In this document: positions 1,127 through 20,375 of the stretch, piece by piece | Layout of the letters: each line of letters starts with the position of its first letter | How positions within the stretch are numbered: the stretch's first letter is position 1 | Assembly (NCBI GenBank): GCA_028876585.1 | Contig: JAGWRL010000009.1 | Location: 1 to 20,375 of the forward strand | Source of the DNA: Pseudomonadota bacterium | GTDB taxonomy: Bacteria; Pseudomonadota; Alphaproteobacteria; Rhizobiales; Beijerinckiaceae | Reading direction: 5' to 3' | Length of the DNA: 20,375 nucleotides | The notes under the pieces: generated by a model | Databases searched by the model: none | What the model saw: only the letters and a program-made list of their open reading frames with translations | Told to the model about the DNA's origin: nothing | Program-made: the position numbers and the translations under genes

Positions 1127-1234
1127 ACATGCGTAATGGAAGTGCGCGTTCATTGGCGACGGCTATGCGCCGACATATCGGGCGCGCAGATTTGACATTG
1201 AACGTGAGGTTTTAGTTTTTTCCGCGAGGTGGCG

Positions 1235-4200
1235 GTGACGAAAATCATGGCCGATGACGCCGGTGGGCGAAAACCCGGCGCTCCCGTCTCGGTGCGGCTG
1301 CGGGGCGAACTTCGGCGTTCCCCCGAACGGGCGCCGCGCATGTCCTATCCGATCCTGGCGGCGGCCGCCGCGCTGGCCCTTGCCGGCGGCCTGGGAATTC
1401 TGCTCTCCCCCCTGACGGCAGGGGTTCGATTCCTTCTGTTATTCGCGATCGCGGTCGGGTTGATCGCGAGTTTCGCCGGGTTGCTCGCCAGACGTTGGCG
1501 GCGTGAACCGCGCGCGGCGCTGATATTCGCCGACGCCGCCGTGGGGGCTTCCGCTACCCGCCTCGACGAAAATCTCGCCACGCACGACGAACCGCGCCGC
1601 AGCGCGCCATCTCCGGGAAGCACAGTCCACATGTTCGCCGCTTTTTTCAAACTCAAACAATTGCGCCCGGCGCCCGAACCGGAAAGGCGCAGCCTCGACG
1701 CGTTGGCGGCGCCGTTGCAGGACCGCCAGGACGCGGGTTCGCTCGGCGCTCAGGCGAGCGGCTTCGCCAGCGCCCTCGCCAACCAGGAAGCGAAGATGAC
1801 GGAAGCGCTCGATCTATATGGTCAGGCGATCGTCTCCCGATTGAACATGGCGAGCGTGACGCTGGCGCGCGAATTTCGCGACAGCGGCGAACAATTGAAC
1901 ATGCGCATCCAGGCGACGGCCGAGGCGGCGATCGAGAATATCGCCCGGCGTGGCGAAGCGGCGTCGCAGGCGCTGCTGCGAACCGTCGATGAAATCGACC
2001 AGCGTCTCAACCAGCATTCGCATCAACTTTCGCTGCACCTGGAATCCACCGGCGCCGGCGCCGCGGAAATCGTCGGCGCGCAATGCGACGCCGCCGCGCG
2101 CCGCTTCGAGCAATCCGTTGTTGCGATGGACCAGGCGGGACAGGCATTGAACGCGCGCGCGGCGAGCGTGGTCGCTGCGGTCGAGACGAAATTGCAGGGC
2201 GCGAGCGCCGGCGTCGAGCAATGGCTCGAACGCGCATTGCAACGGATCGAAACGCGGATCGAGGGGCGGATCGAGGCCTTGAGCGCGCGTCTCGGCGCGG
2301 TCGACGAGAACCTGGATCGACAATGGACGGCGCGGCGCGAAGCCTTGGCGGCGGAATTCGTCGGCGCCGCGGAATCGGCGAAGGCGGCGTTCACGCGCGG
2401 CGTGCAACAGCAGATTCCCGAGTGGATCGGCTGGGTTGAAACGGCGACGCGGCGCAGCGATTCGATGCTCGAGCAAGCGTCGCATGCGATCGCGGCGATC
2501 GAGACGACGATGTCGCACCGGCTCGACGCGTTTGAATCGGCCCTCGCCGCGCGCGGCGAGGCGTTCGCCGAAAAACTGGCGGCGCAATCGCTCGCCGTCC
2601 AGGGCGCGCTCGACAGCGCCGAAAGCCGGATCGTCCAGTTGCAATCGGGCGTCACGCAAACCGTCGACGCGGCGCTGCGGCGCATGGACGAGGCGGTCGC
2701 GGCCGGCTTCCACGAGGCGGAGACCCGTCTGGCGGGAACCGGCGATCAGCATCGCGCCCTGCTCGCGCAGACGCTCGAAGCGCATCGGACGACGCTGGCG
2801 CAGGAATTGAGCGGCGCCGTCGCGACGCTGCAAAACCAGTCGATCGAGCGCGAAAAAGTCGTCGTCGATCATATGGCCACGAGCGCGCGCGCGCTGGCGG
2901 ACGGGCTGCTCGCCGAAGTCGGCGGCATCGCCGAGGCGCTGGGGTCGCGCGGCGAGGCGTTGCGCAATTCTGTGCTGGCGCGGCAGGGCGAACTGATCCG
3001 CGCGATGGAGAGCGGCGTCGCGCAAACCGAATCCGGCTTCGGCAAGAGTTTGCGCGCGACCACGGAATCGCTGGAGGCGCTCGCCGCGCGGATCGACAGC
3101 GGACTTGAGCAACGCGGGCGGGCGATCGCCAGAACGCTGGCGCAGGCGACGCAAACCCTGTTGCAGACGCTGGCCGACGGCGCCCGTCTGGCGCGCTCGG
3201 CGATCGAGACCGACGCCGCCGCCGCCGCGCATGCCTTGGACGAGGCGCGGCTGGCGTTGACGGCGTCGATCGTGGCGACCGCGCGCGGCGGCGCCGAGAC
3301 CTTGACCTCGGGCTTCGTCGGGCATCGGCGGCTGCTGGAGACGAGCGTCGGCGAAGCCGTGAACCGGCTGGAGACGGCGCAGGCCGGCCTGATCGAATCG
3401 ATCGAGCGTTCGGCGGCGGAGGCGGACCATCTGCTCGCGCGTCATCGGGTCGAGGCCAGCCGAGCCTTGCAGGCCGGATCGGTCGAGACCGCGCGCGCGC
3501 TCGACGAACGCCGCGAGAACCTGCTCGCCGCCGTGGCGCAGGCGAGCCAGTCGATCGTGGAGACCCTGTTTCAGCGCGGCGAAGAAAGCCGCCGGGCGCT
3601 CGCAGATGAGGCGGCGAAAGCGGCGGCCGATTTTGCGCGCCAGCAGGCGGCGCTGCGGCAGACCTTCGAAGGCGGCGCGGAGCGGATGCGACGGGAATTC
3701 GTCGCGCCGCTGACCGAGACGCTGACCCGCGTCGAATCGGAAGGCGTGCAACTCGCCGGCGCCGCGCAGGCGCTCGCCGAATCCGTCGCCGCGACGTCGT
3801 CGGCGCACCGCCAGCGGATGAACGAGGCGTTCGCGCGCGAGGCGGAGGCGCTCGCCGCCACATTGGCCGCCAATGCGGAGACGTTCCAGCGCAAGTTCGA
3901 GGCGGCTTTGTCCAATGCGGACGACGTTTTCCTGGCGCGCGGCGTCGATGTCGCGCGCACGCTCACCATGCGGATCGACGAGTTGCGCGCGCTGCTGGAG
4001 CGCGAGGGATCGTCGCTGCTCGAATCGCTCGACTCGCGCCGCGAGAATTTGGCGCAAGCCGTCGAGTCCGTCAGCCAGCGTTCGCTCGGCGACTTCGAGC
4101 GCAAGACGACGGGCCTGATCTCGCTGCTGACCCGGCGCGGCGACGACCTATTGTCGGCGATGACGGCGGCGGCCTCGGAATCGGCGCGAAAAGTCGCCCG

Positions 4201-4450
4201 GCTCACGGGCGCCGTCGATGCGGAGGCCGACCGCGCCGCCGACGCCTTGCGCGACCTGGCGCAAAGGACGGAGGCGCTGCGGGCGCTGGCCGACCGCGCC
4301 GGCGGCGACTTGCCAGCGCGCGCCAAGGTCATCGCCTATGGTTCGCAGCCTTCGCCGCCAACCTACGACGCGTTTGACCATGATGCGCCCGACGCCCCGC
4401 TGCGTCATGCCGCCGAGACAGGCCGGGACTACACGACGCGTCCGATTTAG
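1235..4450 (+). CDS. Large membrane-anchored coiled-coil protein, TipN/GPR-like polarity factor candidate
   Basis: With a GTG start at 1235 the product is 1071 residues; GAGG at 1226-1229 lies five bases upstream. GTG 1229, ATG 1247 and ATG 1340 are in-frame alternatives. Two hydrophobic helices lie at about residues 39-60 and 64-85. They are flanked by Arg-rich segments, which predicts that both ends are cytoplasmic. The rest is Ala/Glu/Arg/Gln-rich, nearly free of Cys, with almost continuous heptad-like helix. A short Arg-[Gly/Arg]-x motif recurs, sometimes exactly 22 residues apart (HRVEAS, ERRENL, QRGEES), as in apolipoprotein-like repeats. This architecture matches Caulobacter TipN (two N-terminal helices plus coiled coil) and, in shorter form, the Agrobacterium growth pole ring protein. 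The role in polarity or polar growth is inferred from architecture only; any long coiled-coil protein could look alike. It is followed by a 244-base gap and a ParA-like ATPase gene. Confidence 0.75.
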   Translation: MTKIMADDAGGRKPGAPVSVRLRGELRRSPERAPRMSYPILAAAAALALAGGLGILLSPLTAGVRFLLLFAIAVGLIASFAGLLARRWRREPRAALIFADAAVGASATRLDENLATHDEPRRSAPSPGSTVHMFAAFFKLKQLRPAPEPERRSLDALAAPLQDRQDAGSLGAQASGFASALANQEAKMTEALDLYGQAIVSRLNMASVTLAREFRDSGEQLNMRIQATAEAAIENIARRGEAASQALLRTVDEIDQRLNQHSHQLSLHLESTGAGAAEIVGAQCDAAARRFEQSVVAMDQAGQALNARAASVVAAVETKLQGASAGVEQWLERALQRIETRIEGRIEALSARLGAVDENLDRQWTARREALAAEFVGAAESAKAAFTRGVQQQIPEWIGWVETATRRSDSMLEQASHAIAAIETTMSHRLDAFESALAARGEAFAEKLAAQSLAVQGALDSAESRIVQLQSGVTQTVDAALRRMDEAVAAGFHEAETRLAGTGDQHRALLAQTLEAHRTTLAQELSGAVATLQNQSIEREKVVVDHMATSARALADGLLAEVGGIAEALGSRGEALRNSVLARQGELIRAMESGVAQTESGFGKSLRATTESLEALAARIDSGLEQRGRAIARTLAQATQTLLQTLADGARLARSAIETDAAAAAHALDEARLALTASIVATARGGAETLTSGFVGHRRLLETSVGEAVNRLETAQAGLIESIERSAAEADHLLARHRVEASRALQAGSVETARALDERRENLLAAVAQASQSIVETLFQRGEESRRALADEAAKAAADFARQQAALRQTFEGGAERMRREFVAPLTETLTRVESEGVQLAGAAQALAESVAATSSAHRQRMNEAFAREAEALAATLAANAETFQRKFEAALSNADDVFLARGVDVARTLTMRIDELRALLEREGSSLLESLDSRRENLAQAVESVSQRSLGDFERKTTGLISLLTRRGDDLLSAMTAAASESARKVARLTGAVDAEADRAADALRDLAQRTEALRALADRAGGDLPARAKVIAYGSQPSPPTYDAFDHDAPDAPLRHAAETGRDYTTRPI

Positions 4451-4606
4451 TTCTACTCGAGGCAGGCGACGCGGGCGACGCCAGAAAGTCTCTCTGGTCC
4501 CGCCGCCGACGAATCGCCATCTAGATTTTGCTTGACGACTTGGTGCGAATGGGCTTTCGACGGGATAAGGACATGGTGAGGCGCAGGGACGCGGATTCCA
4601 TTTTGT

Positions 4607-4623
4607 CGTGGGAAAAGCCCACG
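4607..4623. other. Leader hairpin between the coiled-coil and ATPase genes
   Basis: CGTGGG-AAAAG-CCCACG forms a perfect 6-bp stem with a 5-base loop. It lies in the 244-base gap 4451-4694, about 70 bases before the preferred start of the next gene. No T-run follows, so termination is unlikely. The rest of the gap has a TTGACG hexamer at 4532-4537 without a convincing -10 box. Confidence 0.3.
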
Positions 4624-4694
4624 GGACGTGCGCTGTTGCATGCGCGGACCGCATCGTTCATGCCTCAACGGGGTCGCGAACGGACGGTTCGGTT

Positions 4695-5639
4695 GTGAAA
4701 AAGAACGATGAATCGGTTCGGGACAGGATGTCTGGCGTTGGTCGCCAGAGCCCGGACATACAGCCGCCGCGGTTGCGACCGAGTTCGGCCGTGAGGGAAC
4801 TGCGTCAGTCGCAGGGGCTGGAGCATGCAAAGGAGGCGGATTTGCTGGGGAATTTGATTAGCGTCGCTCATGCCGGTGGACAGGGCAAAACGACGCTCGC
4901 GCAGTTGCTGTATATCTGGGGCAAACAGGCGGGCGGTCATTTCCGGCTGGCGGCGGCCGATTTTCTCGACGAATCCGGTCGCTCGAAGATCGGCAAGCTA
5001 TATCCGAACAAGGTTCTGGAATTCGGCACCGGCGCCAACCTCACCGCCGTGCGCTCCGAAAACAACATGAACGCCTCGGTGCGTTACTGGGACGAACTCG
5101 GCAATCTGTTTCTGACCGGCGGCTATATTCTCGACGTCGGCGCCAATGTCGTGAAGAGCGTGTTCGAATGGGCCGAAGATCGCCGGCTGTCGACCGTGCT
5201 GGCGCGCAAGGGCGCGCCGAAGTTCGACATTTTCTGCATCTGCAAGGCCGAGAAGCACGCCACCGACGACGTGCAACGGCTGGTGCATCTGATCGGCCAG
5301 GGCAATGCGCTGCGGCCGCGCCACATCTATATCGTCCTCAATGAGGCGGCCGGCAATTTCGGCGCGATGGGGCTGCAGGAGCGCCTCGCCGCAGCGAACA
5401 AGGATCTGAACCTCATCTTCGTGCGGCTGCCGCGCTGCCAGTCCGAGATCTGGGGGCCGATGGAACGCTTCGGCGTATCCGTCGAGCGCGCGCTCGACAT
5501 GAGCGAGGATGAGATCAGCCAGGCGCTGGATGTCGACATCTGGACCGCGAGCGCCGGGCTGGCGGAGCTGCGCGCCTGGTTCGAAGCCGCTCAGGCCGAG
5601 TTCAAATCCGTCGGCGTGCTCTCCAGCGATCTGCTCTGA
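4695..5639 (+). CDS. ParA/MinD-like P-loop ATPase, function unknown
   Basis: The start is uncertain: GTG 4695 (314 residues) begins with a typical Lys-rich N-terminus, and ATG 4728 is also in frame. Neither has a strong ribosome site. A longer frame from GTG 4608 exists but its extra residues look non-coding. The P-loop is in the sequence VAHAGGQGKTTLAQLL. Its GGxGKTT spacing resembles the deviant Walker A of ParA/MinD ATPases (KGGxGKTT), but the signature Lys is Ala. A later hydrophobic strand ending in Asp (YILDVGANVVKS) is a plausible second nucleotide-site motif. No membrane segment or DNA-binding motif is evident. A relationship to ParA-like or TraL-like ATPases is inferred from the loop alone. 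It lies downstream of the coiled-coil polarity candidate on the same strand and is separated from purB by a hairpin. Confidence 0.7.
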   Translation: MKKNDESVRDRMSGVGRQSPDIQPPRLRPSSAVRELRQSQGLEHAKEADLLGNLISVAHAGGQGKTTLAQLLYIWGKQAGGHFRLAAADFLDESGRSKIGKLYPNKVLEFGTGANLTAVRSENNMNASVRYWDELGNLFLTGGYILDVGANVVKSVFEWAEDRRLSTVLARKGAPKFDIFCICKAEKHATDDVQRLVHLIGQGNALRPRHIYIVLNEAAGNFGAMGLQERLAAANKDLNLIFVRLPRCQSEIWGPMERFGVSVERALDMSEDEISQALDVDIWTASAGLAELRAWFEAAQAEFKSVGVLSSDLL

Positions 5640-5668
5640 GACGCCGCCTTTACGAAGTCGGGAAAAAC

Positions 5669-5701
5669 GGCGTCCGGGCGTTCCGGGCGCCGCATTGTTT
5701 T
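5669..5701 (+). terminator. Probable transcription terminator between the ATPase gene and purB
   Basis: GGCGTCCGG (5669-5677) pairs with CCGGGCGCC (5683-5691) through nine base pairs including one G-U, around a five-base loop. GCATTGTTTT follows. The T-tract is short and displaced from the stem, so termination may be weak. It lies 30 bases after the ATPase stop codon and 30 bases before purB. Confidence 0.5.
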
Positions 5702-5730
5702 CCGGCGCTCGACAGACGAACGAGTGAGAC

Positions 5731-7038
5731 ATGATCCCGCGTTACTCCCGTCCCGAAATGACCGCGATCTGGGCGCCGCAGACGCGCTTTCGCATCTGGT
5801 TCGAGATCGAGGCGCACGCCTGCGACGCGCTCGCCGACATCGGCGCGATTCCGGCCGCGAGCGCGCGGGCGATCTGGGAAAAGGCGGGTCAGGTCGCATT
5901 CGACGAAGCGCGCATCGACGAGATCGAGCGCGTCACCAAACATGACGTGATCGCGTTCCTGACCCATCTGGCCGAGTTCATCGGGCCGGATTCGCGCTTC
6001 GTGCATCAGGGGCTGACCAGCTCCGACGTGCTCGACACCTGCCTGGCGGTGCAGTTGCAACGCGCCAGCGATCTGCTGATCGCCGACGTCGACGCGCTGC
6101 TGGCGGCGTTGAAGCGGCGCGCCTTCGAGCACAAGCTCACCCCGACGATCGGCCGCTCGCACGGCATCCACGCCGAGCCGGTCACCTTCGGCCTCAAGCT
6201 CGCCGGCTTCTACGCGGAATTTTTGCGCGCCCGCGCCCGGCTGGTCGCGGCGCGCGAGGAAATCTCCACCTGCGCCATCTCCGGCGCGGTCGGCACCTTC
6301 GCCAATGTCGATCCGCGCGTCGAGGCGCATGTCGCGGCCAAGCTCGGCCTGAAGCCGGAGCCGATCTCGACCCAGGTGATCCCGCGCGACCGGCACGCGG
6401 CGTTTTTCGCGGCCCTCGGCGTCGTGGCCGCCTCGGTCGAGCGGCTGGCGGTGGAAATCCGCCATCTGCAACGCACCGAAGTGCTGGAGGCGGAGGAATA
6501 TTTCTCCGAAGGGCAAAAAGGCTCCTCCGCCATGCCGCACAAGCGCAATCCGGTGCTGACCGAGAACCTGACCGGGCTTGCCCGGCTGGTGCGCAGCGCC
6601 GTGACTCCGGCGCTGGAGAACGTGGCGCTATGGCACGAGCGCGACATCTCGCATTCCTCGGTCGAGCGCGGCATCGCCCCCGACGCGACGGTGACGCTCG
6701 ATTTCGCGCTGGCGCGGCTCGCCGGCGTGGTCGACAAGCTGGTGATCTATCCCGAAAACATGCGCAAAAACCTCGACCGCCTCGGCGGCCTGATCCACTC
6801 GCAGCGCGTGCTGCTGGCGCTGACCCAAAACGGCGTCTCGCGCGAGGACGCCTATCTGTTCGTGCAACGCAACGCGATGCCGGTCTGGCGCGGCGAGGGC
6901 GATTTCCTGACGCTACTGAAGGCGGACAGGCAAGTGCGCGCGGCGCTGACCGAGGCGGAGCTGGAGGCGCTGTTCGATCTGGGCTACCATTTTAAACAGG
7001 TGGATGCGATTTTTGGAAGGGTGTTTGGGGAGGGGTGA
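5731..7038 (+). CDS. purB: Adenylosuccinate lyase
   Basis: This 435-residue enzyme performs two fumarate-releasing steps of purine synthesis: SAICAR to AICAR, and adenylosuccinate to AMP. It belongs to the fumarase/aspartase superfamily and acts as a cytoplasmic homotetramer. The superfamily signature GSSAMPHKRNP is at residues 264-274, the TSSD loop at 96-99, and the GRSHG segment with the conserved catalytic-region His (H144) at 141-145. Length is normal for the bacterial short type. The ATG at 5731 is preceded by GAGTGAG at a suitable distance. An upstream hairpin suggests that it is transcribed separately from the ATPase gene. It is intact and typical. Although purine catabolism genes lie 2 kb away, they are on the other strand in a separate operon. 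Confidence 0.96.
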   Translation: MIPRYSRPEMTAIWAPQTRFRIWFEIEAHACDALADIGAIPAASARAIWEKAGQVAFDEARIDEIERVTKHDVIAFLTHLAEFIGPDSRFVHQGLTSSDVLDTCLAVQLQRASDLLIADVDALLAALKRRAFEHKLTPTIGRSHGIHAEPVTFGLKLAGFYAEFLRARARLVAAREEISTCAISGAVGTFANVDPRVEAHVAAKLGLKPEPISTQVIPRDRHAAFFAALGVVAASVERLAVEIRHLQRTEVLEAEEYFSEGQKGSSAMPHKRNPVLTENLTGLARLVRSAVTPALENVALWHERDISHSSVERGIAPDATVTLDFALARLAGVVDKLVIYPENMRKNLDRLGGLIHSQRVLLALTQNGVSREDAYLFVQRNAMPVWRGEGDFLTLLKADRQVRAALTEAELEALFDLGYHFKQVDAIFGRVFGEG

Positions 7039-9158: not shown

Positions 9159-10451
9159 CTAGCGCTTCGCCGGCTCACCCGCGATGTAGGTTTGCGCGAC
9201 CGCGCGGTCCTCGCCCATCGTCATCAGCACGAACAGTTCTTCGGCGAGATCGCCGTCCACCGCCTGCATCCGATGCGCCATCGCCGGCGTGGCGCGCGCG
9301 TCGAGCACGACGAGGTCGGCCTCGCGGCCCGGCTCCAGCCCGCCGATCTTGTCGTCGAGCCCGAGCGCGCGGGCGTTGCCGAGCGTCATTTGATAGAACG
9401 CCTGCATCGCGGGCCAGCTCTGCCGGCGCATCTGCAACACCTTGTAGGCCTCGTTGGCGGTTTGCAGCAGCGAATAGCTGGTGCCGCCGCCGATGTCGGT
9501 CGCCAGCGCGACCCGCACGCCGGCCGCGTCGAGCCCCGCCTCGTCGAACAGGCCGGAGCCGAGAAACAGGTTGGAGGTCGGACAGAACGCCGCCACGCCG
9601 CCTTTGTGCGCCAGCGCGGCGATCTCGCGCGCTTCCAAGTGCAGGCAATGGCCGAACACCGATTTCGGCCCGAGCAGCCCCGCCATTTCGTAGACGTCGA
9701 GATAATCGCGGGCATGCGGATAAAGCGATTTGGTCAAGGCGATTTCGTCGCCGTTTTCGCTGAGATGGGTCTGGATGTGCGCGTCGGGGAATTCGCGCGC
9801 CAAAGCGCCGGCCGCCGCCAGTTGCGCCTCGCTCGACGTGATCGCGAAGCGCGGCGTGATCGCGTAACCGAGCCGGCCGCGCCCATGCCATCGGGTCAGC
9901 AGCGCCTTGCTGTCGTCGTACCCGCGTTGCGGATCGTCGGTCAGCGCCGGCGGCGCGTTGCGGTCCATCATCACTTTGCCGGCGATCATGCGCGCGTTGC
10001 GCCGCTCGGCCTCGGCGAAGAACGCTTCCGCCGATTGTGGGTGCACCGTGCAATAGACCATCGCGGTGGTCGTGCCCTGCCGCGCCAACTCATCGAGAAA
10101 GAACCGGGCGACGATTTCGGCGTGCGCGGGATCGGCGAATTTCTGCTCCTCGACGAAAGTGTATTTTTGCAGCCATTCCAGCAGCCGCACGCCATAGGAG
10201 CCCACGACCCGGGTTTGCGGGTAATGGATATGCGCATCGATCAGGCCGGGCAGGATCAGCTTGGCGGCGTGATCGTCGATGCGCGCATCGGCCGGCGCGC
10301 GCGCCAGCACCTCGCGCGCTTCGCCCGCCTCGACGATCTTTCCCGCTTCGATCCGCAGCGCGCCGCGTTCGAAATAGACATGCGCCGCCGCGCCCGCGTG
10401 GCGCGGCGCGTCGCGGAACCACAGCAGGCGGCCCTTGACGATCCGCGTCAC
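9159..10451 (-). CDS. guaD: Guanine deaminase
   Basis: The enzyme hydrolyses guanine to xanthine and ammonia, feeding guanine into purine breakdown. It is a 430-residue amidohydrolase-superfamily protein. The metal site is complete: HIH at 74-76 within LIDAHIHYPQT, H229 in QTHLSEN, H268 in GHCLH, and D319 in ATDIGGGTS. The CPTSNLFLGSG segment (290-300) is typical of GuaD. The start is GTG 10451, whose bases overlap the TGA of the upstream gene (GTGA), implying translational coupling. The frame stays open upstream, but that extension lies in the wrong frame of puuE-uraD and is not coding. The stop codon sits inside the palindrome GCGCTAGCGC (9156-9165). Xanthine dehydrogenase, uricase and HIU hydrolase are not in the window. 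Confidence 0.95.
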   Translation of the reverse strand: MTRIVKGRLLWFRDAPRHAGAAAHVYFERGALRIEAGKIVEAGEAREVLARAPADARIDDHAAKLILPGLIDAHIHYPQTRVVGSYGVRLLEWLQKYTFVEEQKFADPAHAEIVARFFLDELARQGTTTAMVYCTVHPQSAEAFFAEAERRNARMIAGKVMMDRNAPPALTDDPQRGYDDSKALLTRWHGRGRLGYAITPRFAITSSEAQLAAAGALAREFPDAHIQTHLSENGDEIALTKSLYPHARDYLDVYEMAGLLGPKSVFGHCLHLEAREIAALAHKGGVAAFCPTSNLFLGSGLFDEAGLDAAGVRVALATDIGGGTSYSLLQTANEAYKVLQMRRQSWPAMQAFYQMTLGNARALGLDDKIGGLEPGREADLVVLDARATPAMAHRMQAVDGDLAEELFVLMTMGEDRAVAQTYIAGEPAKR

Positions 10452-11860
10452 GGCAGAATGTCCGCCAGCCGCAGCGCGGCGATGCGGTCGATTTCGGCGA
10501 GCGCGGTCGCCGTCTCCGCCGCCTTGTCGTGGTTCAAGCGCAAGTCGAAGGCGGACAGGATGTCGGCCTTGGTCTTGCCCTTGATCGCCATGATGAAGGG
10601 AAAGCCGAATTTCGCCTTGTAGGCGTCGTTGAGCGCGCCGAAACGGCTGGCCTCGTCGTCGCTGAGATGGTCGAGGCCGGCGCTCGCCTGCTCCTTGGTG
10701 GAATCCGCGGTCAGGCGCTTGGCCCGCGCCAGCCGGCCCGCGAGATCGGGATGGGCCTCGATCAGCGCCATTTTCTGCGCCGGCGATCCCGCGGCGACGG
10801 CGCCCGCCATGACGGCGGCGAGCCCTGCGGCGGAATCCGCCTGCGCGCCGAGGCCGCGATCGAACGCGGCCTCCGCGACCCAGCGCGAATGTTCGTAGAC
10901 GCCGCCGAACCTCTCGACGAACAAAGTTCGCGTCAGTTGCGAGGGCTTCCAGCCGCCGGGCGGGGCGTGTCGGGCGATCCAGTGACGCGCGATGTCGAGC
11001 CTTGTGGCGACCCAGACCTTGTCGTGCGAGCGGACGTAATCGAGGAAGCGCGCGAGCGAGGCCGCGCGCCCCGGCCGCCCGACCAGCCGGCAATGCAGCC
11101 CGATCGACAGCATTTTCGGCGCGGTTTCGCCCTCGGCGTAAAGCACGTCGAAGGCGTCTTTGAGATAAGCGTAGAATTGATCGCCGGAGTTGAAACCCTG
11201 CGGCGTCGCGAATCGCATGTCGTTGGAATCGAGCGTATAGGGAACGATGAGCTGCGGCCCGCGCGGGCCTTCGATATAATAGGGCAAATCGTCGGCGTAG
11301 GTGTCGGCGCAATAGAGGAAGCCGCCCTCCTCGCACCCCAGCGGAATGGTGTTGATCGAGGAGCGGCCTTGATAGAGGCCGAGCGGCCGCGCGCCGGCGA
11401 CCTCGGTGTGAATACGGATCGCCTCGGCCAGATGCTGGCGTTCGACCTCCTTGGGCGTGTCGCGATAGTCGACCCATTTGTAGCCGTGGGTGGCGATCTC
11501 CCAGCCCGCCTCGTTCATGGCGTCGACCGCCGGCTTGTTGCGCGCCATCGCGGTCGCCACGGCGTAGACCGTCACCGGCAATTCGCGGTCGATGAACATG
11601 CGATGCAGCCGCCAGAACCCGGCGCGCGAGCCGTATTCGTAGATCGATTCCATGTTCATGTGGCGCATGCCCGGCCACGGCGCGGCGCCGACGATCTCCG
11701 ACAGGAACGCCTCCGAGGCGGCGTCGCCATGCAGGATGTTGTTCTCGCCGCCCTCTTCGTAATTGATGACGAATTGCAGCGCGACGCGGGCGCCGCCGGG
11801 CCAATCCGCGAAAGGCGGCGTGCGGCCATAGCCGATCATGTCGCGCGGATAGTCAGTCAT
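10448..11860 (-). CDS. Fused allantoinase (PuuE type) and OHCU decarboxylase (UraD)
   Basis: The 470-residue protein joins two late uric-acid-degradation steps. Residues 1 to about 300 are a polysaccharide-deacetylase-fold allantoinase of the PuuE type (allantoin to allantoate), starting with DMIGYGRTPPFADWPGGARVALQFVINYEEG and including HGYKWVDYR. Residues about 305-470 are UraD (OHCU to S-allantoin), with the catalytic HPDL (370-373), the LTxxSTxEQxxAGL motif (383-396) and KFGFPFIMAIKGK (417-429). UraD acts before PuuE in the pathway although it is the C-terminal half. ATG 11860 is chosen over TTG 11878 because GGGAGA at 11871-11876 lies ten bases upstream. The stop overlaps the guaD start. 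Such fusions are known in proteobacteria. Confidence 0.95.
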   Translation of the reverse strand: MTDYPRDMIGYGRTPPFADWPGGARVALQFVINYEEGGENNILHGDAASEAFLSEIVGAAPWPGMRHMNMESIYEYGSRAGFWRLHRMFIDRELPVTVYAVATAMARNKPAVDAMNEAGWEIATHGYKWVDYRDTPKEVERQHLAEAIRIHTEVAGARPLGLYQGRSSINTIPLGCEEGGFLYCADTYADDLPYYIEGPRGPQLIVPYTLDSNDMRFATPQGFNSGDQFYAYLKDAFDVLYAEGETAPKMLSIGLHCRLVGRPGRAASLARFLDYVRSHDKVWVATRLDIARHWIARHAPPGGWKPSQLTRTLFVERFGGVYEHSRWVAEAAFDRGLGAQADSAAGLAAVMAGAVAAGSPAQKMALIEAHPDLAGRLARAKRLTADSTKEQASAGLDHLSDDEASRFGALNDAYKAKFGFPFIMAIKGKTKADILSAFDLRLNHDKAAETATALAEIDRIAALRLADILP

Positions 11861-11906
11861 CGCCAGAAAATCTCCCAAGCCCCGTTCCCGGGCAGATTAG
11901 CGCGCC

Positions 11907-14172: not shown

Positions 14173-14901
14173 ATGAAGGTCGCTTCCTACAATATTCACA
14201 AGTGCCGCGGAACCGATGGCCTGACCCGGCCGCAGCGCATCCTCGAAGTCGTCAAGGAACTCGACGCCGACCTGATCGCGTTGCAGGAGGTCGACAAACG
14301 TTTCGGCCGCAAGGACGGCCTGCTCGACCCGGAGGCGATCCGCCGCGAAACCGGCATGCGCCTGCTGGTGCAATCCGATCTGCCGCAGGGCCACGGCTGG
14401 CACGGCAACGCCCTGCTGGTGCGCGCCGAACCCAAATCCTACCGCCGGTTGCGGCTGCGCTTGCCGGGGTTCGAGCCGCGCGGCGCGATCGTCGCCGAAC
14501 TGGATTTCGGCGAGGGCGAGTTTCGCGTGATCGCCGCCCATCTCGGGCTGTTGCGCCAATCGCGCCTCGATCAGGCGAGCGCACTGTTGAAAGCGCACCG
14601 CGAGATGGAGCCGATGCCGACCATCCTGATGGGCGATTTCAACGAATGGCGGCGGCGGCGGCGCTCCTCGCTGTCGGTGCTCGAGCCGATTTTCGGCGGC
14701 GACGTTCCGCCGCTGAGCTTCCCGTCGCGGCGGCCGATTTTCGCACTCGATCGCATTTTGGGCTGGCCGAACGGGCTGATCGTCGATCTCGCTGTGCACG
14801 CCTCGCCGCTCGCTCGCGTGGCGTCGGACCACCTGCCGCTGACCGGGCGGGTGCAGTTCGCCGCGCGTCAGGCGACGCCGTCCCTGATCCTGACGAAATA
14901 A
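14173..14901 (+). CDS. Endonuclease/exonuclease/phosphatase family protein
   Basis: The 242-residue protein shows the full metal-dependent phosphodiesterase set: SYNIHKC (5-11), LQEVD, AAHLGLLRQSR, GDFNEW (154-159) and SDHLPL (218-223). These correspond to the Asn, Glu, His, Asp-Asn and Asp-His residues of the DNase I/exonuclease III fold. Members cleave DNA, phospholipids or phosphoinositides. The short length without extra domains and the position 15 bases behind a cardiolipin synthase gene hint at a lipid-related role, which is inference. There is no signal peptide. The 3' end overlaps the end of the opposite-strand kinase pseudogene by 34 bases. Confidence 0.9.
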   Translation: MKVASYNIHKCRGTDGLTRPQRILEVVKELDADLIALQEVDKRFGRKDGLLDPEAIRRETGMRLLVQSDLPQGHGWHGNALLVRAEPKSYRRLRLRLPGFEPRGAIVAELDFGEGEFRVIAAHLGLLRQSRLDQASALLKAHREMEPMPTILMGDFNEWRRRRRSSLSVLEPIFGGDVPPLSFPSRRPIFALDRILGWPNGLIVDLAVHASPLARVASDHLPLTGRVQFAARQATPSLILTK

Positions 14902-15955
14902 TCGTCGCCGCCGATCTGCCCGCCCTTGAGCGCGATTTGGAGGCCGTCGAGCCCCGGCGCGTCGCAATAGGCGCGACAGAGCGGCGAGCCCGGCGTCGCC
15001 GGCAACGGCAGCAGCGTCGTCAGAGCGTAGACGCCGAGTTCGGCCAGCGCATGGCTCGACGTGTCGTCGCCGGCGATCACCGCCCGCCGCAGCCCCGCCT
15101 GCGCGATCAAGGCGCGCTCGATCCGCCCCAGCGCCTTGCCGATCGCGCGCCGCGCGCCCTTGGCCACGAATTCGGCGCGGGGAAGTCGCCAGCGCCGGGG
15201 ATCGCGCCCGTGCTTCCCCAGACGCGCAGCAGCGCATATTCGACGCCGGAAGAGCCGGCGACGAAAAGGCCGCGGCGGGAGGTCAGGCGGGCGAGCTGGC
15301 GGCCGACCGCCTCCTGCGTCAGCGCGTCGGCGACATCGAACAGGACGATGTCGGCGATGACGGCGTCGACCTGATCGTCGACGTCGCCGCGGGCGAGAGC
15401 GGCGAGATCGACGAGGCCGATGGCCTTGTCGGTCTGGCGCGCGAGATGCAGGCGCAGGTCGGATTCGCGCATCGGCGTCACCGGATGGCGCGACATCACG
15501 GGATGCCGGTCGATGCGGTAGGTCTGGCCCTGATAGGCCGCGAACCGATGGCCAAACGCGGTGTAGCGCTTCAACTGCGGCGCGCCGACGACGAGGGGAA
15601 CCACGGCTTGCGCGAACAATCGCTGGCCGATGTCGATGGCGCGGCCGATGCTGCCGATCTCCGGACTGGAATCGAAGGTCGAGCACACCTTGTAATGACA
15701 GACGCCGGCGCCCAGGCTTTTCAACCAACCGAGCGCGGGCGTGAGATGTTCGTCCATCCAGGCCGGCGTTTCGCTGCGACTCGCGCCCGCCAGCCCGATC
15801 GCCCGGACATCAGGAAAACGCGCGCGCTGCGTCGGGCTCGGAACCTGCGTGAACAGGACGGTCGGCGTGCCGTGCGAGGCGAGCGCCTCCATCACATCGG
15901 TCGCGCCGGTCAGGTCGTCGCCATAGTAGGAGAGGAGCAGCGGTTCAGGCGTCAT
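14868..15955 (-). pseudogene. oiaK: Broken four-carbon acid-sugar kinase (DUF1537), 3-oxo-isoapionate kinase-like
   Basis: The family phosphorylates four-carbon acid sugars; beside a RuBisCO-like gene and apnO/apsD the expected substrate is 3-oxo-isoapionate. The start ATG 15955 lies inside the end of oiaC. Frame 1 encodes the N-terminal domain with GDDLTG (12-17), VCSTFDSSPEIGSIGRA and FVAGSSGVEYALL, then loses sense after GDFP near 15182. The C-terminal domain continues in another frame (RAEFVAKGARRAIGKALG to DYFVRIRDGVA). The frame change needs one base, for example in the four-base G run at 15179-15182. In addition the joined product would be about 362 residues against roughly 400-430 for the family, and the SGSCS-type motif that opens the C-terminal domain is absent, so an internal segment seems deleted. 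The conserved GGDTSS reads GDDTSS. It is very probably non-functional. Confidence 0.82.
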
Positions 15956-17215
15956 GGTTGGTCCCGCCGAATTTGGCGATGGATTGGGCAAGTTCGCGAT
16001 GATCGCGCGCATAGACCTCCAGCGCAACGCCGGCGACCGCCGCCTCCCACGCCTGCCGAACCGCGCGCACGCCGGCGGCCGGCCCGCCGGGATGGCTGAC
16101 CACGCCGCCGCCGCAGAGTTAGAGGAGATCCTGCGTGCGGCCGGTGCGCGAACGTCTCCGGCGCCTGCCCGCCCCATTGGCCCGAACCCGCGACCGGCAG
16201 CGGGCAATCCTGGGCCGAGAACAACGGCGTCCTCAGCGCCTCGAACGAGCGAACGAACGACGCGTCCCGCTCCCAATATTTGGCGCCTATGCCGTTGATC
16301 TGGAACTGGTCGACGCCGAGCAGCCGCCAGAATTGCTGATAGACGCGAAAATCCACGCCGAGGCCAGGGTGCGGGTCAAGATGCCCAACCGTTGCGATGC
16401 GCGTGCAGCACGAGGCGCGAGCGCGTGCGCAAAAAAGCGAATCGGCCATAGCCGATCGAGTTGAAGTTGATGACCGCCGCATTGCCGCCCGCCGCCGCGA
16501 CGACGTCGTGCCGGCGCAACATGGTCTCGGGGTCGGCGTGCGAAATGCCGAACGCGTACATCACCTTCTTGCCGGTCTTCTGCTCGTGGTCGAGGAGGAT
16601 CGGCATGATCGCCTGCACGCGATCCTCCAGGCGCGAATAGGCCGGGCTCATCAGCTTTTCATCATCCTTGATGACGTCGACGCCGGCCTCCACCAACTCT
16701 CGCACCATCGCGGCCGTCTCGTGCGGGCGCAGGCCGAGCGCGGGCTTGACGATCGTGCCGATGATCGGGCGTTGCGCAACGCCGGTCAGCGCGCGGCTGC
16801 CGGCGACGCCGAATTGCGGGCCGGGATGGGCCGCGCCGAACTCCGGCGGCAGCTTCATGTCGACGACGCGGACGCCGCTAAAACCCTTGATCGAATAGAC
16901 GCCGCCAATCGCAATCGTGGTCAGCGCGGCAAGATCGGTCCTCACCGCGTCGAGTGGGAATTCGATATCGGCCTCGCGGCGGGCGTAGGGTCCGCGAACC
17001 GTCGGATCGTCTTGAGGAAACGAAGGCGTCTCGACCGCCGGCAGCGGCCGCAGCGCAACCACGCGCGCGCCGACGCGGGCCTTCAGCTCCGGCGTTTCGC
17101 CGGGCGTGGCGACAAACGCGCCGGTTGATTGGTCGCTCGCAATCTTGTGCGCCAGCGCCGCGACTTCGCCCGCCGTCTCGATGCGATAGGTCATGCGAAT
17201 GACGGAGTCAGACAT
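15945..17215 (-). pseudogene. oiaC: Broken RuBisCO-like protein, OiaC/OiaT-like
   Basis: The intact family is about 420 residues and acts on 3-oxo-isoapionate 4-phosphate, as a decarboxylase (OiaC) or transcarboxylase/hydrolase (OiaT); which one cannot be told here. ATG 17215 has AGGGA eight bases upstream. The first frame carries IVKPALGLRP (155-164) and the metal-site KDDE (183-186), then reaches HAHRNGW and a stop. RuBisCO-like sequence resumes in a second frame (HPGLGVDF to GQWGGQAPETF) and ends in a third (TGRTQDLL to FGGTNHDA). Matching the family pattern WGxLTRHP and ETxRRTG needs single added bases near 16385 and 16371 and two near 16148. The third frame also holds a TAA at 16121-16119 where LLYL is expected. 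Restoring four bases gives 425 codons. This is a clear pseudogene unless the sequence is faulty. Confidence 0.88.
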
Positions 17216-17255
17216 CGGCTTTTCCCTGGCTGCGATCAGACGCCGCTTGCGACCT

Positions 17256-18283
17256 TCAAAGCGCCGCGACCGCCAGCCTCTCCCCCGATTTCGCCGAGGC
17301 GTAGGCCGCCTCGACCAGCGCCAGCGTCTTGAGATTGTCGCGGCCCGAGGTCGCCGGTTCGCGCCGCGCGCGCAGACAGTCGATCCAATGGCGCTCGATC
17401 GCCTGCACGCTCTCCTGAATGTTGTGCCACGGCCGCGACGCCCAGGGCAACAAGGGCGGCGACACATCGCGGCGATAGGAGCCGTTCCCGCCGGTGACCG
17501 CGAGCTGGTAGCCTTGCAGCAACCGGACGCTGCCGCGCGCGCCGTCGACCTCGATCAGCGTCTCGGGGAACGGCTCGATCTCGCGCCGCGTCGCGTAGCT
17601 GCAATCAACCAGCGACGTGACGCCGCTGTCGTGATCGAGCAGGATCGTGGCGGAATCCTCGCCGCGAATGGCCGGGTTGACGCGGCGCAGGCGCGCGGTC
17701 GCGGTCGTCACGTCGCCGAACAGATAGCGCGCGACATCGAGCAGGTGGAAGCCGAGATCCTCGACGATGAACCGCTCGCCCTCGGCCAGATAGGGTTGGC
17801 CGCTGAACACGTCGTAGCCGGAGCGGAACGACACGCGCCCCAGAACGGCGCGCCGATTTCGCCGCTTTCGATCACCGCCGCGAGGCTGCGGATCGCGCTC
17901 TGCCAACGAAAATTCTCGTGCGCCATCAGCGCGACGCCGGCCTCTTCGCAACAGGCGACCATCGCGCGGGCGTCGTCCATCGACAGGGCGAACGGCTTTT
18001 GGCAGATGACGGCGACGCGATGGCGGGCGGCGAGTTCAACCAACGGCCGATGCGACGGCGTCGTGGTCGCGACGTCGACGAAATCCAGCGTGTCGTTCGC
18101 CAGCATCTCGTCCATCTCTAGGTAGCGGCGGGCGATGCCGAACTGCTCGCCCACCAGCGCCAGGCGCTGCCGGTCGCGATCGCAGATCGCGACGATCCGC
18201 GCGCCCTCGACCCCGCGCCAACCATGCAGATGGTTGATCGAGAAAAAGCCGCACCCGACCAATACGCCGCGAAACTCGCTCAT
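17256..18283 (-). pseudogene. apsD: Frameshifted D-apiose dehydrogenase-like Gfo/Idh/MocA protein
   Basis: ApsD oxidises D-apiose to apionolactone with NAD. ATG 18283 begins eight bases after the apnO stop. The N-terminal Rossmann part has LVGCGFFSINHLHGW (8-22), ICQKPFA (93-99) and HENFRWQ (122-128), and runs to GAPFWG at residue 149. It then leaves frame. The C-terminal domain continues in the next frame as RVSFRSGYDVF, with EDLGFHLLDVARYLFGD (the HxxxD pattern) and SPPLLPWASRPWHNIQES. One missing base, most simply a G in the run at 17838-17841, joins the halves as FWGRVSFRSG and gives 342 residues, the normal family length. The assignment to ApsD rather than another sugar dehydrogenase rests on the neighbours and remembered similarity. 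Confidence 0.82.
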
Positions 18284-18291
18284 GTCGCGCT

Positions 18292-19119
18292 TCAGGTGAT
18301 GCGCCGGATGCTGTCGGCGATCTCGTTGGGCTCGAACACGCGTTTCCAATCCGGCCGCATCAACGCCGGCTTGCCGAACTCGATCGCCTTGTTGCAAGCG
18401 TCCGAGAACACGCCCTCCACTTCGCCGAATGTCACGGCGCCGAGCACGTTCATGTGGCCGAGCAGGAAATCGCGCGCCGCTTCGCGCGGCGCGCCGCGCG
18501 CGACGACTTCCTCCATCGCCTCGCGCATCACCGCCAGCAAGGTCGCGCAGACCGTCTCGGACAGACCCGGTTCGAGCAGCGCCATCTGCTCGACGGTGAC
18601 GCGGTGCGAGCGCATCACCGGCGCCCAGATCACTTTGGCGATCTCCTCGCCCAATGCGAAGGCGCTGTCGGGCCCCTGCATCAGCGCGCTGACGATGTGC
18701 TGCTTGGCCGCGACGCCGCCGAAATGGTCGCGCTTGGCGGCCATGTCGGTCTCGTCGTTGAAGATCGGCGGATGGCAGGGATGGGTGACGAAATAGATCA
18801 GGTCGGGGCGCGCCGGCAGGTGGCCGGCGAAAGGCGCGGCGGCGTCGAGCGCGATCACCATCGTGCCCGCCTTGAGCTTGCTGTCGATGCCGGCGGCGAC
18901 CTTGCCGATATGGGTGTCGGGAACCGCGAGGATGACGATCTCGGCGCCGTCGAGCGCCTGATCCGGCGTCACGCATTCGAAGCCGAGATCGGTCTTCAGC
19001 CGCGCCTGTCCGGCCGGGGCCACCTCGACGTGACGAACTTGGAAGCGCGAGCCCTGGAGGTTCTTGGCCAGGCGGTAGCCCATTTTCCCGCCCGCGCCGA
19101 ATAGTGCGATCGACGTCAA
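18292..19119 (-). CDS. apnO: D-apionate oxidoisomerase-like NAD-dependent enzyme
   Basis: The 275-residue protein has an N-terminal Rossmann motif, FGAGGKMG (7-14), and AEIVILAVPDTHIG, followed by a helical C-terminal domain like that of phosphogluconate dehydrogenase-type enzymes (FVTHPCHPPIFND, MRSHRVTVEQMALLEPGLSET, GHMNVLGAVTFGE). ApnO converts D-apionate to 3-oxo-isoapionate. The frame extends upstream to 19239, but the preferred start is TTG 19119, which has GAGGGAG eight bases upstream and sits about 20 bases after the predicted transcription start. It is the first gene of the operon and the only one with no visible lesion. ApnL lactonase, a transporter and a regulator are not in the window. 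A different 6-phosphogluconate-dehydrogenase-like role is possible but less likely given the neighbours. Confidence 0.82.
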   Translation of the reverse strand: MTSIALFGAGGKMGYRLAKNLQGSRFQVRHVEVAPAGQARLKTDLGFECVTPDQALDGAEIVILAVPDTHIGKVAAGIDSKLKAGTMVIALDAAAPFAGHLPARPDLIYFVTHPCHPPIFNDETDMAAKRDHFGGVAAKQHIVSALMQGPDSAFALGEEIAKVIWAPVMRSHRVTVEQMALLEPGLSETVCATLLAVMREAMEEVVARGAPREAARDFLLGHMNVLGAVTFGEVEGVFSDACNKAIEFGKPALMRPDWKRVFEPNEIADSIRRIT

Positions 19120-19147
19120 AGCTGGTGCTCCCTCAATGCCGCAGCGG

Positions 19148-19176
19148 ATAAAATGAGATAGTTTGCGAAGTGTCAA
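19148..19176 (-). promoter_or_regulatory. Sigma70-type promoter of the apnO-apsD-oiaC-oiaK operon
   Basis: On the minus strand TTGACA (19176-19171), a perfect -35, is followed after exactly 17 bases by TTTTAT (19153-19148), four of six matches to the -10 consensus. Transcription would start near 19141, just before the GAGGGAG ribosome site and the TTG start at 19119. The surrounding DNA is AT-richer than the genes. The promoter looks undamaged although three downstream genes are broken. Confidence 0.6.
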
Positions 19177-19381
19177 TCGAACGCCGTGAGGCGAACACAC
19201 CGCGCGTCGTGGGCGGAGGTAGGCCGCATCGTCACGCACACGGCGAAATACCTCAACGCCGACTTCCCGCTAAAGTACAGGGTCGGCGCGGTCTCGACGC
19301 GGCGACTCCCGTCCTGCCCTCTTTCGTTTAACGCCGCGCTAGCTTATGGCGACGCAAGCTTCCACGGGACCCCGCGCGCGC

Positions 19382-20375
19382 ATGATACGCCTCGAAAACA
19401 TCTCCAAGCAGAACGGCCAGCATCTGCTTTTTGTCGAAGCCTCGGCGACCCTGATGCGCGGCGAGAAAGTCGGCCTCGTCGGTCCCAATGGCGCCGGCAA
19501 GACCACGCTGTTTCGCATGATCACCGGGCAGGAGGCGCCCGACGAGGGGCAGGTCTCGGTCGAGCGCGGCTTCAGCATCGGCTATTTCAGCCAGGACGTC
19601 GGCGAGATGAAGGGCCGCAGCGCCGTGTTCGAGGTGATGGACGGCGCCGGCCCCGTCAGCGTCGCGGCGGCGGAACTGGCGGAGCTTGAGGCCCGCATGG
19701 TTGATCCCGAGCAGGCCGACGAAATGGACGCGATCATCGAGCGCTACGGCGAGGCGCAGCACCGCTTCGAGGAACTGGGCGGCTATGCGCTGGAGGGGCG
19801 CGCGCGCGAGGTGCTCGCCGGCCTGAATTTCACTCAGGAGATGATGGACGGCGATGTCGGCGCCTTGTCGGGCGGCTGGAAGATGCGCGTCGCGCTGGCA
19901 CGCATTCTCCTGATGCGCCCCGACGCGATGCTGCTCGACGAACCGAGCAACCATCTCGACCTCGAAAGCCTGATCTGGCTCGAGCAGTTTCTGAGGGGAT
20001 ACGAGGGCGCGCTCTTCATGACCTCGCACGATCGCGAATTCATGAACCGCATCGTCAACAAAATTGTCGAGATCGACGGCGGTTCGCTGACGACCTATTC
20101 CGGCGACTATGAGTTCTACGAGCGGCAGCGCGCGGAGGGCGAGAAACAGCAGCAGGCGCAATTCGAGCGGCAGCAGGCGATGCTGGCCAAGGAGGTCAAA
20201 TTCATCGAGCGCTTCAAGGCGCGCGCCTCGCATGCGGCGCAGGTGCAGAGCCGGGTGAAGAAGCTCGACAAGATCGAGCGGGTGGAGCCGCCGCGCCGCC
20301 GCCAGACAATCCTATTCGATTTTCCGCCGGCGCCGCGCTCCGGCGAGGATGTGGCGAGCCTCAAGGGCGTGCACA
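19382..20375 (+). CDS. ABC-F family ATPase (N-terminal half; runs off the window)
   Basis: ABC-F proteins carry two ATPase domains without membrane segments and act on the ribosome. The visible 331 residues hold the first domain: Walker A GPNGAGKT (34-41), the extended signature LSGGWKMR (162-169), Walker B with the ABC-F form LLDEPSNHLD (184-193), and TSHDREF. The charged inter-domain linker follows, ending in RVKKLDKIERVEPPRRR. The sequence strongly resembles the housekeeping ABC-F protein (YheS/Uup-like) of Rhizobiales, from memory. The start MIRLENISKQ at 19382 fits the family; an in-frame ATG at 19346 would add 12 residues, and neither has a strong ribosome site. The rest lies beyond the window end. 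Confidence 0.93.
   Translation, partial: MIRLENISKQNGQHLLFVEASATLMRGEKVGLVGPNGAGKTTLFRMITGQEAPDEGQVSVERGFSIGYFSQDVGEMKGRSAVFEVMDGAGPVSVAAAELAELEARMVDPEQADEMDAIIERYGEAQHRFEELGGYALEGRAREVLAGLNFTQEMMDGDVGALSGGWKMRVALARILLMRPDAMLLDEPSNHLDLESLIWLEQFLRGYEGALFMTSHDREFMNRIVNKIVEIDGGSLTTYSGDYEFYERQRAEGEKQQQAQFERQQAMLAKEVKFIERFKARASHAAQVQSRVKKLDKIERVEPPRRRQTILFDFPPAPRSGEDVASLKGVH

Follow-up and report, generated by a model that had tools for sequence, protein, structure and literature searches.

Probable recent inactivation of a D-apiose catabolic operon in an alphaproteobacterium of the Beijerinckiaceae

Loci for D-apiose catabolism carrying the kinase OiaK and the RuBisCO-like protein OiaX were reportedly described by Carter et al. 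in 2018 (Nat Chem Biol), together with the order of the steps. ApsD is said to oxidize D-apiose to apionolactone, a lactonase to open the lactone, ApnO to turn D-apionate into 3-oxo-isoapionate, OiaK to phosphorylate this compound, and OiaX to decarboxylate the phosphate, with the product passing to central metabolism. RuBisCO-like proteins of apiose catabolism are described in an excerpt of PMC6302742, and an excerpt of PMC11747546 gives the same enzymes plus an apionolactonase, with EC numbers, and reports growth on D-apiose by a strain carrying the set. Here, we analyze a window of 20,375 nucleotides of alphaproteobacterial DNA (GenBank assembly GCA_028876585.1, contig JAGWRL010000009.1, positions 1 to 20,375 of the forward strand), whose purB shares 84% DNA identity with the Methylocapsa sp. 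S129 gene and 86% with that of a genome of the same family, G209. At 14868-19119, four tightly spaced genes on the minus strand have the order apnO-apsD-oiaX-oiaK of the D-apiose/D-apionate pathway. Three of them are broken, and we consider it likely that a D-apiose catabolic operon that worked in a recent ancestor has lost its function in this lineage through several small mutations. The features of the operon are as follows.

18292..19119, minus strand: apnO, predicted D-apionate oxidoisomerase (PGDH_C family), intact, with a TTG start (PF16896, E = 6e-73)
17256..18283, minus strand: apsD, predicted D-apiose dehydrogenase (Gfo/Idh/MocA), broken by one frame change at about 17837-17840
15945..17215, minus strand: oiaX, predicted RuBisCO-like 3-oxo-isoapionate-4-phosphate decarboxylase, broken by frame changes at about 16380-16385 and 16147-16151
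16119..16121, minus strand: in-frame TAA in oiaX, at a tyrosine invariant among 25 thinned relatives
14868..15955, minus strand: oiaK, predicted 3-oxo-isoapionate kinase, broken by the loss of about 235 base pairs (bp) near 15173-15176, with 9 bp lost in frame at about 15355

As reported for the loci of Carter et al. 2018, the same enzyme families lie side by side on one strand; unlike in those loci, three of the four genes are broken, and there are no apnL or transporter genes in the window. The apiose cluster of Rhodobacteraceae strain LCG007, as given in the excerpt of PMC11747546, likewise has ApsD, ApnO, OiaK and OiaX, but includes ApnL and supports growth on D-apiose. The locus of Methylocapsa sp. 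S129 (L001 and L164 in our set) shares the order apnO-apsD-oiaX-oiaK, and the window pieces are 68-87% identical to it. However, that locus is intact; its apnO and apsD are separated by an ABC sugar transporter, its oiaX is preceded by a GntR regulator and its oiaK by a triose-phosphate isomerase gene. By tblastn, the sugar-transporter, GntR and triose-phosphate isomerase genes of the relatives have no counterpart in the window, where the transporter ATPase query only touches an ABC-F gene at 27-31% identity. Similarly, the ApnL of an intact locus, L019, found no match (tblastn, E 1e-3) in the window, nor in 19 kb of Methylocapsa locus L164; lactones can also open spontaneously. A scan of 14700-19500 for sigma-70 sites found no promoter-like site, and two terminator-like sites, below the 3.4 expected. 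A literature search of titles and abstract openings found no paper on decay of the apiose pathway.

Homology supports the D-apiose/D-apionate pathway, with its OiaK-OiaX branch, as the probable identity of the operon. The putative ApnO, named mainly from its neighborhood, is 80-82% identical over its full length to the apnO products of L019 and L164. The ApsD pieces are 61-74% identical to apsD of L001 and L019, match the N and C domains of Gfo/Idh/MocA proteins in Pfam, and have relatives at 72-80% identity whose source name is D-apiose dehydrogenase. The NCBIfam scan of the window pieces and the L019 orthologues matched no ApnO or ApsD model. By sequence, the best solved relatives are PDB 5t57 for ApnO (E = 9e-130), and 5uhw for the N piece of ApsD (E = 3e-59), both reportedly from the apiose work; the RuBisCO-like protein is best matched by 3nwr and the kinase by 5dmh. 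The RuBisCO-like gene, which the first-pass annotation had taken for OiaC/OiaT, is OiaX, since NF042437 outranks every other NCBIfam model on each of its pieces (E = 1.4e-140, N piece; 7.8e-41, second piece); the gene being broken, neither piece alone reaches the 700-bit cut-off of this model, and the assignment is one of homology. For both kinase pieces the best model is that of OiaK, NF042436 (E = 2.7e-100 and 1.2e-22), on which even the intact L019 orthologue scores 460 bits versus a cut-off of 700. In L019, ApnL (841 bits, cut-off 750) and OiaX (783 bits, cut-off 700) adjoin ApnO, ApsD and OiaK. These models, the ApnO and ApsD identities and the L019 neighborhood support the assignment of the four-gene order to the apiose/apionate pathway. 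It is very improbable that the operon serves another sugar-acid pathway. All four enzyme families do have other members, and the low L019 OiaK score and the unmatched ApnO and ApsD would fit such a role, but the OiaX and OiaK models outscore all others for the pieces, intact OiaX is over its cut-off in six of 298 genomes of the family and in L019, and L019 holds all five genes, ApnL over its own cut-off, side by side.

We mapped the lesions, all read from a single source, the assembled contig, by tblastn of the intact Methylocapsa (L001) and L019 proteins and then of closer relatives from the protein database. ApnO aligns in a single frame without a gap (residues 1-275 of 276, at 19122-18298). 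Two frames meet at 17837-17840 in apsD, and three in oiaX, at 16380-16385 and near 16147-16151, with the TAA at 16121-16119 in addition. The oiaK gene is split between two frames, and 63 to 94 residues between its pieces are left without a match, a figure that varies with the relative and with alignment overrun; the loss computes to ~235-238 bp with every relative used, and the pieces overlap by 4 bp (15173-15176) when aligned to relatives P0245 and P0248. As a result of this deletion, positions 1-86 of the NBD_C domain are unmatched. The first oiaK piece has a further gap of three residues (9 bp, in frame), at a site where 55 relatives have 13 residues, one has 12 and the window has 10. This gap is found in 0/56 relatives of more than 420 amino acids, and the large deletion is likewise absent from these full-length relatives (the four shorter of the 60 stand outside the comparison). 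The G378D change in OiaK falls in the GGDTSSH motif, which 54/56 relatives keep. The disabling lesions thus number five: three small frame changes, one frame-changing deletion and one stop. Alignment to the intact pathway proteins agrees in the lesions with the first-pass annotation, which had reported that three of the four adjacent genes are out of frame in places and that one has an in-frame stop, and adds to it the two oiaK deletions.

Long as the pieces still are, and similar to their relatives, we give next to no credence to their being expressed separately, or joined by programmed frameshifting, and still working. The lesions differ in kind, the nucleotide-binding domain of OiaK is incomplete, oiaX combines a stop with two frame changes, and a single full-length protein is predicted in 57 (oiaX), 56 (apsD) and 56 (oiaK) of 60 relatives each. 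Judging from the reading frames, ApsD, OiaX and OiaK cannot be made whole, and apiose and apionate would be unusable through this locus; ApnO alone appears to be still readable.

The lesions are confined to three of the 16 genes of the window and to 3,375 of its 18,855 coding bases. As had been claimed from the sequence at first reading, the other complete genes are free of such lesions: the 12 genes outside the operon are all open, and those with fetched relatives align to them in one frame. A single one-frame stretch is seen for purB, acyl-CoA dehydrogenase, guanine deaminase, puuE-uraD, NUDIX, phospholipase-D-like, endonuclease-like, ABC-F and apnO, and ech keeps one frame along its full length in L127 and as far as a contig end in G209. 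Two open genes, at 1229-4450 and 4608-5639, have no relative among the fetched loci, and the gene at 2-673, likewise open, has one partial match there (50% identical). Two of these genes border the operon.

14173..14901, plus strand: endonuclease/exonuclease/phosphatase-family gene, intact (PF03372; one-frame alignment to L149 and L150)
19346..20374, plus strand: ABC-F gene, intact as far as seen, running off the window (92% identical to L151; divergent from apnO)

The endonuclease-like gene is convergent with oiaK and overlaps its end. Among the remaining genes, 10448-11878 encodes an allantoinase PuuE fused to an OHCU decarboxylase (UraD), beside guanine deaminase in a purine catabolism group, and 1229-4450 encodes a protein of 1073 amino acids with a sub-threshold match of apolipoprotein type.

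The chance that five random disabling lesions all fall in the 3,375 coding bases of the broken genes is 1.8e-4; a fairer estimate is roughly 1e-3, the block having been picked after the lesions were seen. This clustering bears on an alternative that we regard as unlikely, namely that the organism has intact genes and the contig a local error, owing to thin coverage, mixed strains, uncorrected indels or a collapsed stretch in oiaK. All five disabling lesions fall within 3.4 kb out of a coding total of 18.9 kb, and the control genes have none, although they hold 119 of the 142 homopolymer runs of at least four. The broken genes hold 23/142 of these runs and 3/33 of those of at least five, about their length share or less, and homopolymer error as sole cause of the lesions is unsupported by these counts. 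The 235-bp deletion, the 9-bp deletion and the stop codon are, moreover, untypical of indel errors.

Amino-acid substitutions were compared at columns otherwise invariant among relatives, after thinning near-identical ones and omitting those under ~95% of the length (57, 56 and 56 of 60 kept in the second set). For changes at such columns, the window ranks high, at 1/36 for apsD, 1/26 for oiaX and 3/49 for oiaK in the first set, and 1/46, 2/50 and 2/53 in the second; like the G378D change, this speaks for real mutations. One OiaX relative, P0012 (408 amino acids), shows 38/165 changes at otherwise invariant columns and perhaps has a local frame fault of its own. In a relative-rate test, from which this aberrant protein was dropped and in which five residues beside each lesion were omitted, the broken genes have 22 window-specific versus 10 relative-specific changes (p = 0.05; 4:4 for oiaK alone). 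Against Methylocapsa, the three broken genes have 43 amino acids unique to the window versus 16 unique to Methylocapsa, and the controls scatter (apnO 4:0, purB 5:1, ech 17:10, acd 2:25, puuE 6:11, ABC-F 0:1). We set aside relaxed selection as a reading of these unique changes, since nearer relatives exist and the controls go both ways.

A number of observations weigh against inactivation by mutation and are in part what a faulty contig would produce. Five control genes give 22:13 in the relative-rate test (guaD and NUDIX, two of the seven, were uncounted for want of an outgroup), no different from the 22:10 of the broken genes (Fisher p = 0.80), so that these show no detectable excess of amino-acid change. 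Changes in the window affect only 2.4-4.8% of invariant columns; the oiaX ranks would drop to about third or fourth if the stop and two residues next to a frame change were left uncounted; and the intact apnO also ranks 1/11. The end branches of the window are unremarkable (4th of 51 for apsD, 5th of 42 for oiaX and 8th of 63 for oiaK), and third-position guanine-cytosine (GC) content is still high, at 0.83-0.88. The 120 best matches listed per search include no second sequence of this lineage, the closest being 86% (oiaX), 82% (apsD) and 80% (oiaK) identical. Three of the lesions, small indels in short GC-rich runs, resemble the errors of uncorrected reads, and the apsD break coincides with a GGGG run.

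Apart from the lesions themselves, nothing demonstrated decay in the sense of relaxed selection. Since amino-acid change is no greater than in the controls, the loss would be recent, or else the contig may be misassembled here; both predict little extra change. What tips the balance to decay, and away from base-calling error, are the 235-bp and 9-bp deletions, alongside the clustering of the lesions; these would then be real mutations. The lesion clustering noted in the first-pass annotation is supported, and the preservation of the genes fits the recent loss that it proposed. That reading was largely right, and its observation is confirmed and extended, with corrections concerning OiaX and the absent apnL and transporter genes.

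Intact copies exist elsewhere. We found 253 genome-contig stretches encoding an OiaX relative and kept the best 80, to which seven further loci were added; Methylocapsa sp. S129 counts twice in the resulting 87, L001 and L164 being one genome. Found via an intact OiaX piece, this set leans towards working loci, and matches reaching a locus end were left unjudged for breaks; breaks were flagged in 0/86 loci for oiaX, 0/86 for oiaK, 1/77 for apsD and 5/70 for apnL. The apsD case is a frame break at 1812-2838 of a Mesorhizobium apiose locus, L077. The gene most often flagged is apnL; L044, L046, L049, L071 and L078 (Mesorhizobium) each show a frame break, a stop or a short match there, at ~4300-6100. 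The order most often visible in the fetched flanks is apsD-apnL-oiaX-oiaK (61/87 loci); the order apnO-apsD-oiaX-oiaK is seen in 4/87 without apnL, plus two with apnL in between.

The pathway is patchy in the family, because OiaX is over its curated cut-off in just six of the 298 genomes, open in each. At the DNA level, a search of the 298 for the operon gave a match in 48, with at best 72-81% identity over parts. G209, the genome closest to the window in purB, is absent from these 48; its contigs break off within ech and within the ABC-F gene, leaving no readable empty site. In G209, purB occurs on two contigs, C112 and C619, both times 86% identical to that of the window, possibly reflecting a mixed bin. 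No apnO match was found in the fetched neighborhoods of the phospholipase-endonuclease pair (G196 and G122) and of the ABC-F gene, and therefore the operon is not at that place in those genomes. Plasmids gave distant DNA matches in 294 records, among which Rhizobium and Sinorhizobium are the most frequent genera; no record has a single place that covers 80% of the query.

In the working ancestor, the ApsD, lactonase, ApnO, OiaK and OiaX steps would have fed apiose carbon to central metabolism; the lineage of the window would then have lost the initial oxidation step along with phosphorylation and decarboxylation, presumably following disuse of the pathway for lack of substrate. It is improbable that ApnO was kept under selection after this loss through a second role, e.g., on another hydroxy acid, as an enzyme freed for a new job. 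The operon is best described as an ordinary, well-preserved pseudogene operon of a known, patchy pathway, and as a probable recent gene loss. It also carries a caution for annotation, as named OiaX, OiaK and ApsD fragments could be taken for presence of the pathway. If our interpretation is true, this locus would be one clean case in which a plant-sugar pathway of patchy distribution was lost recently and through multiple hits.

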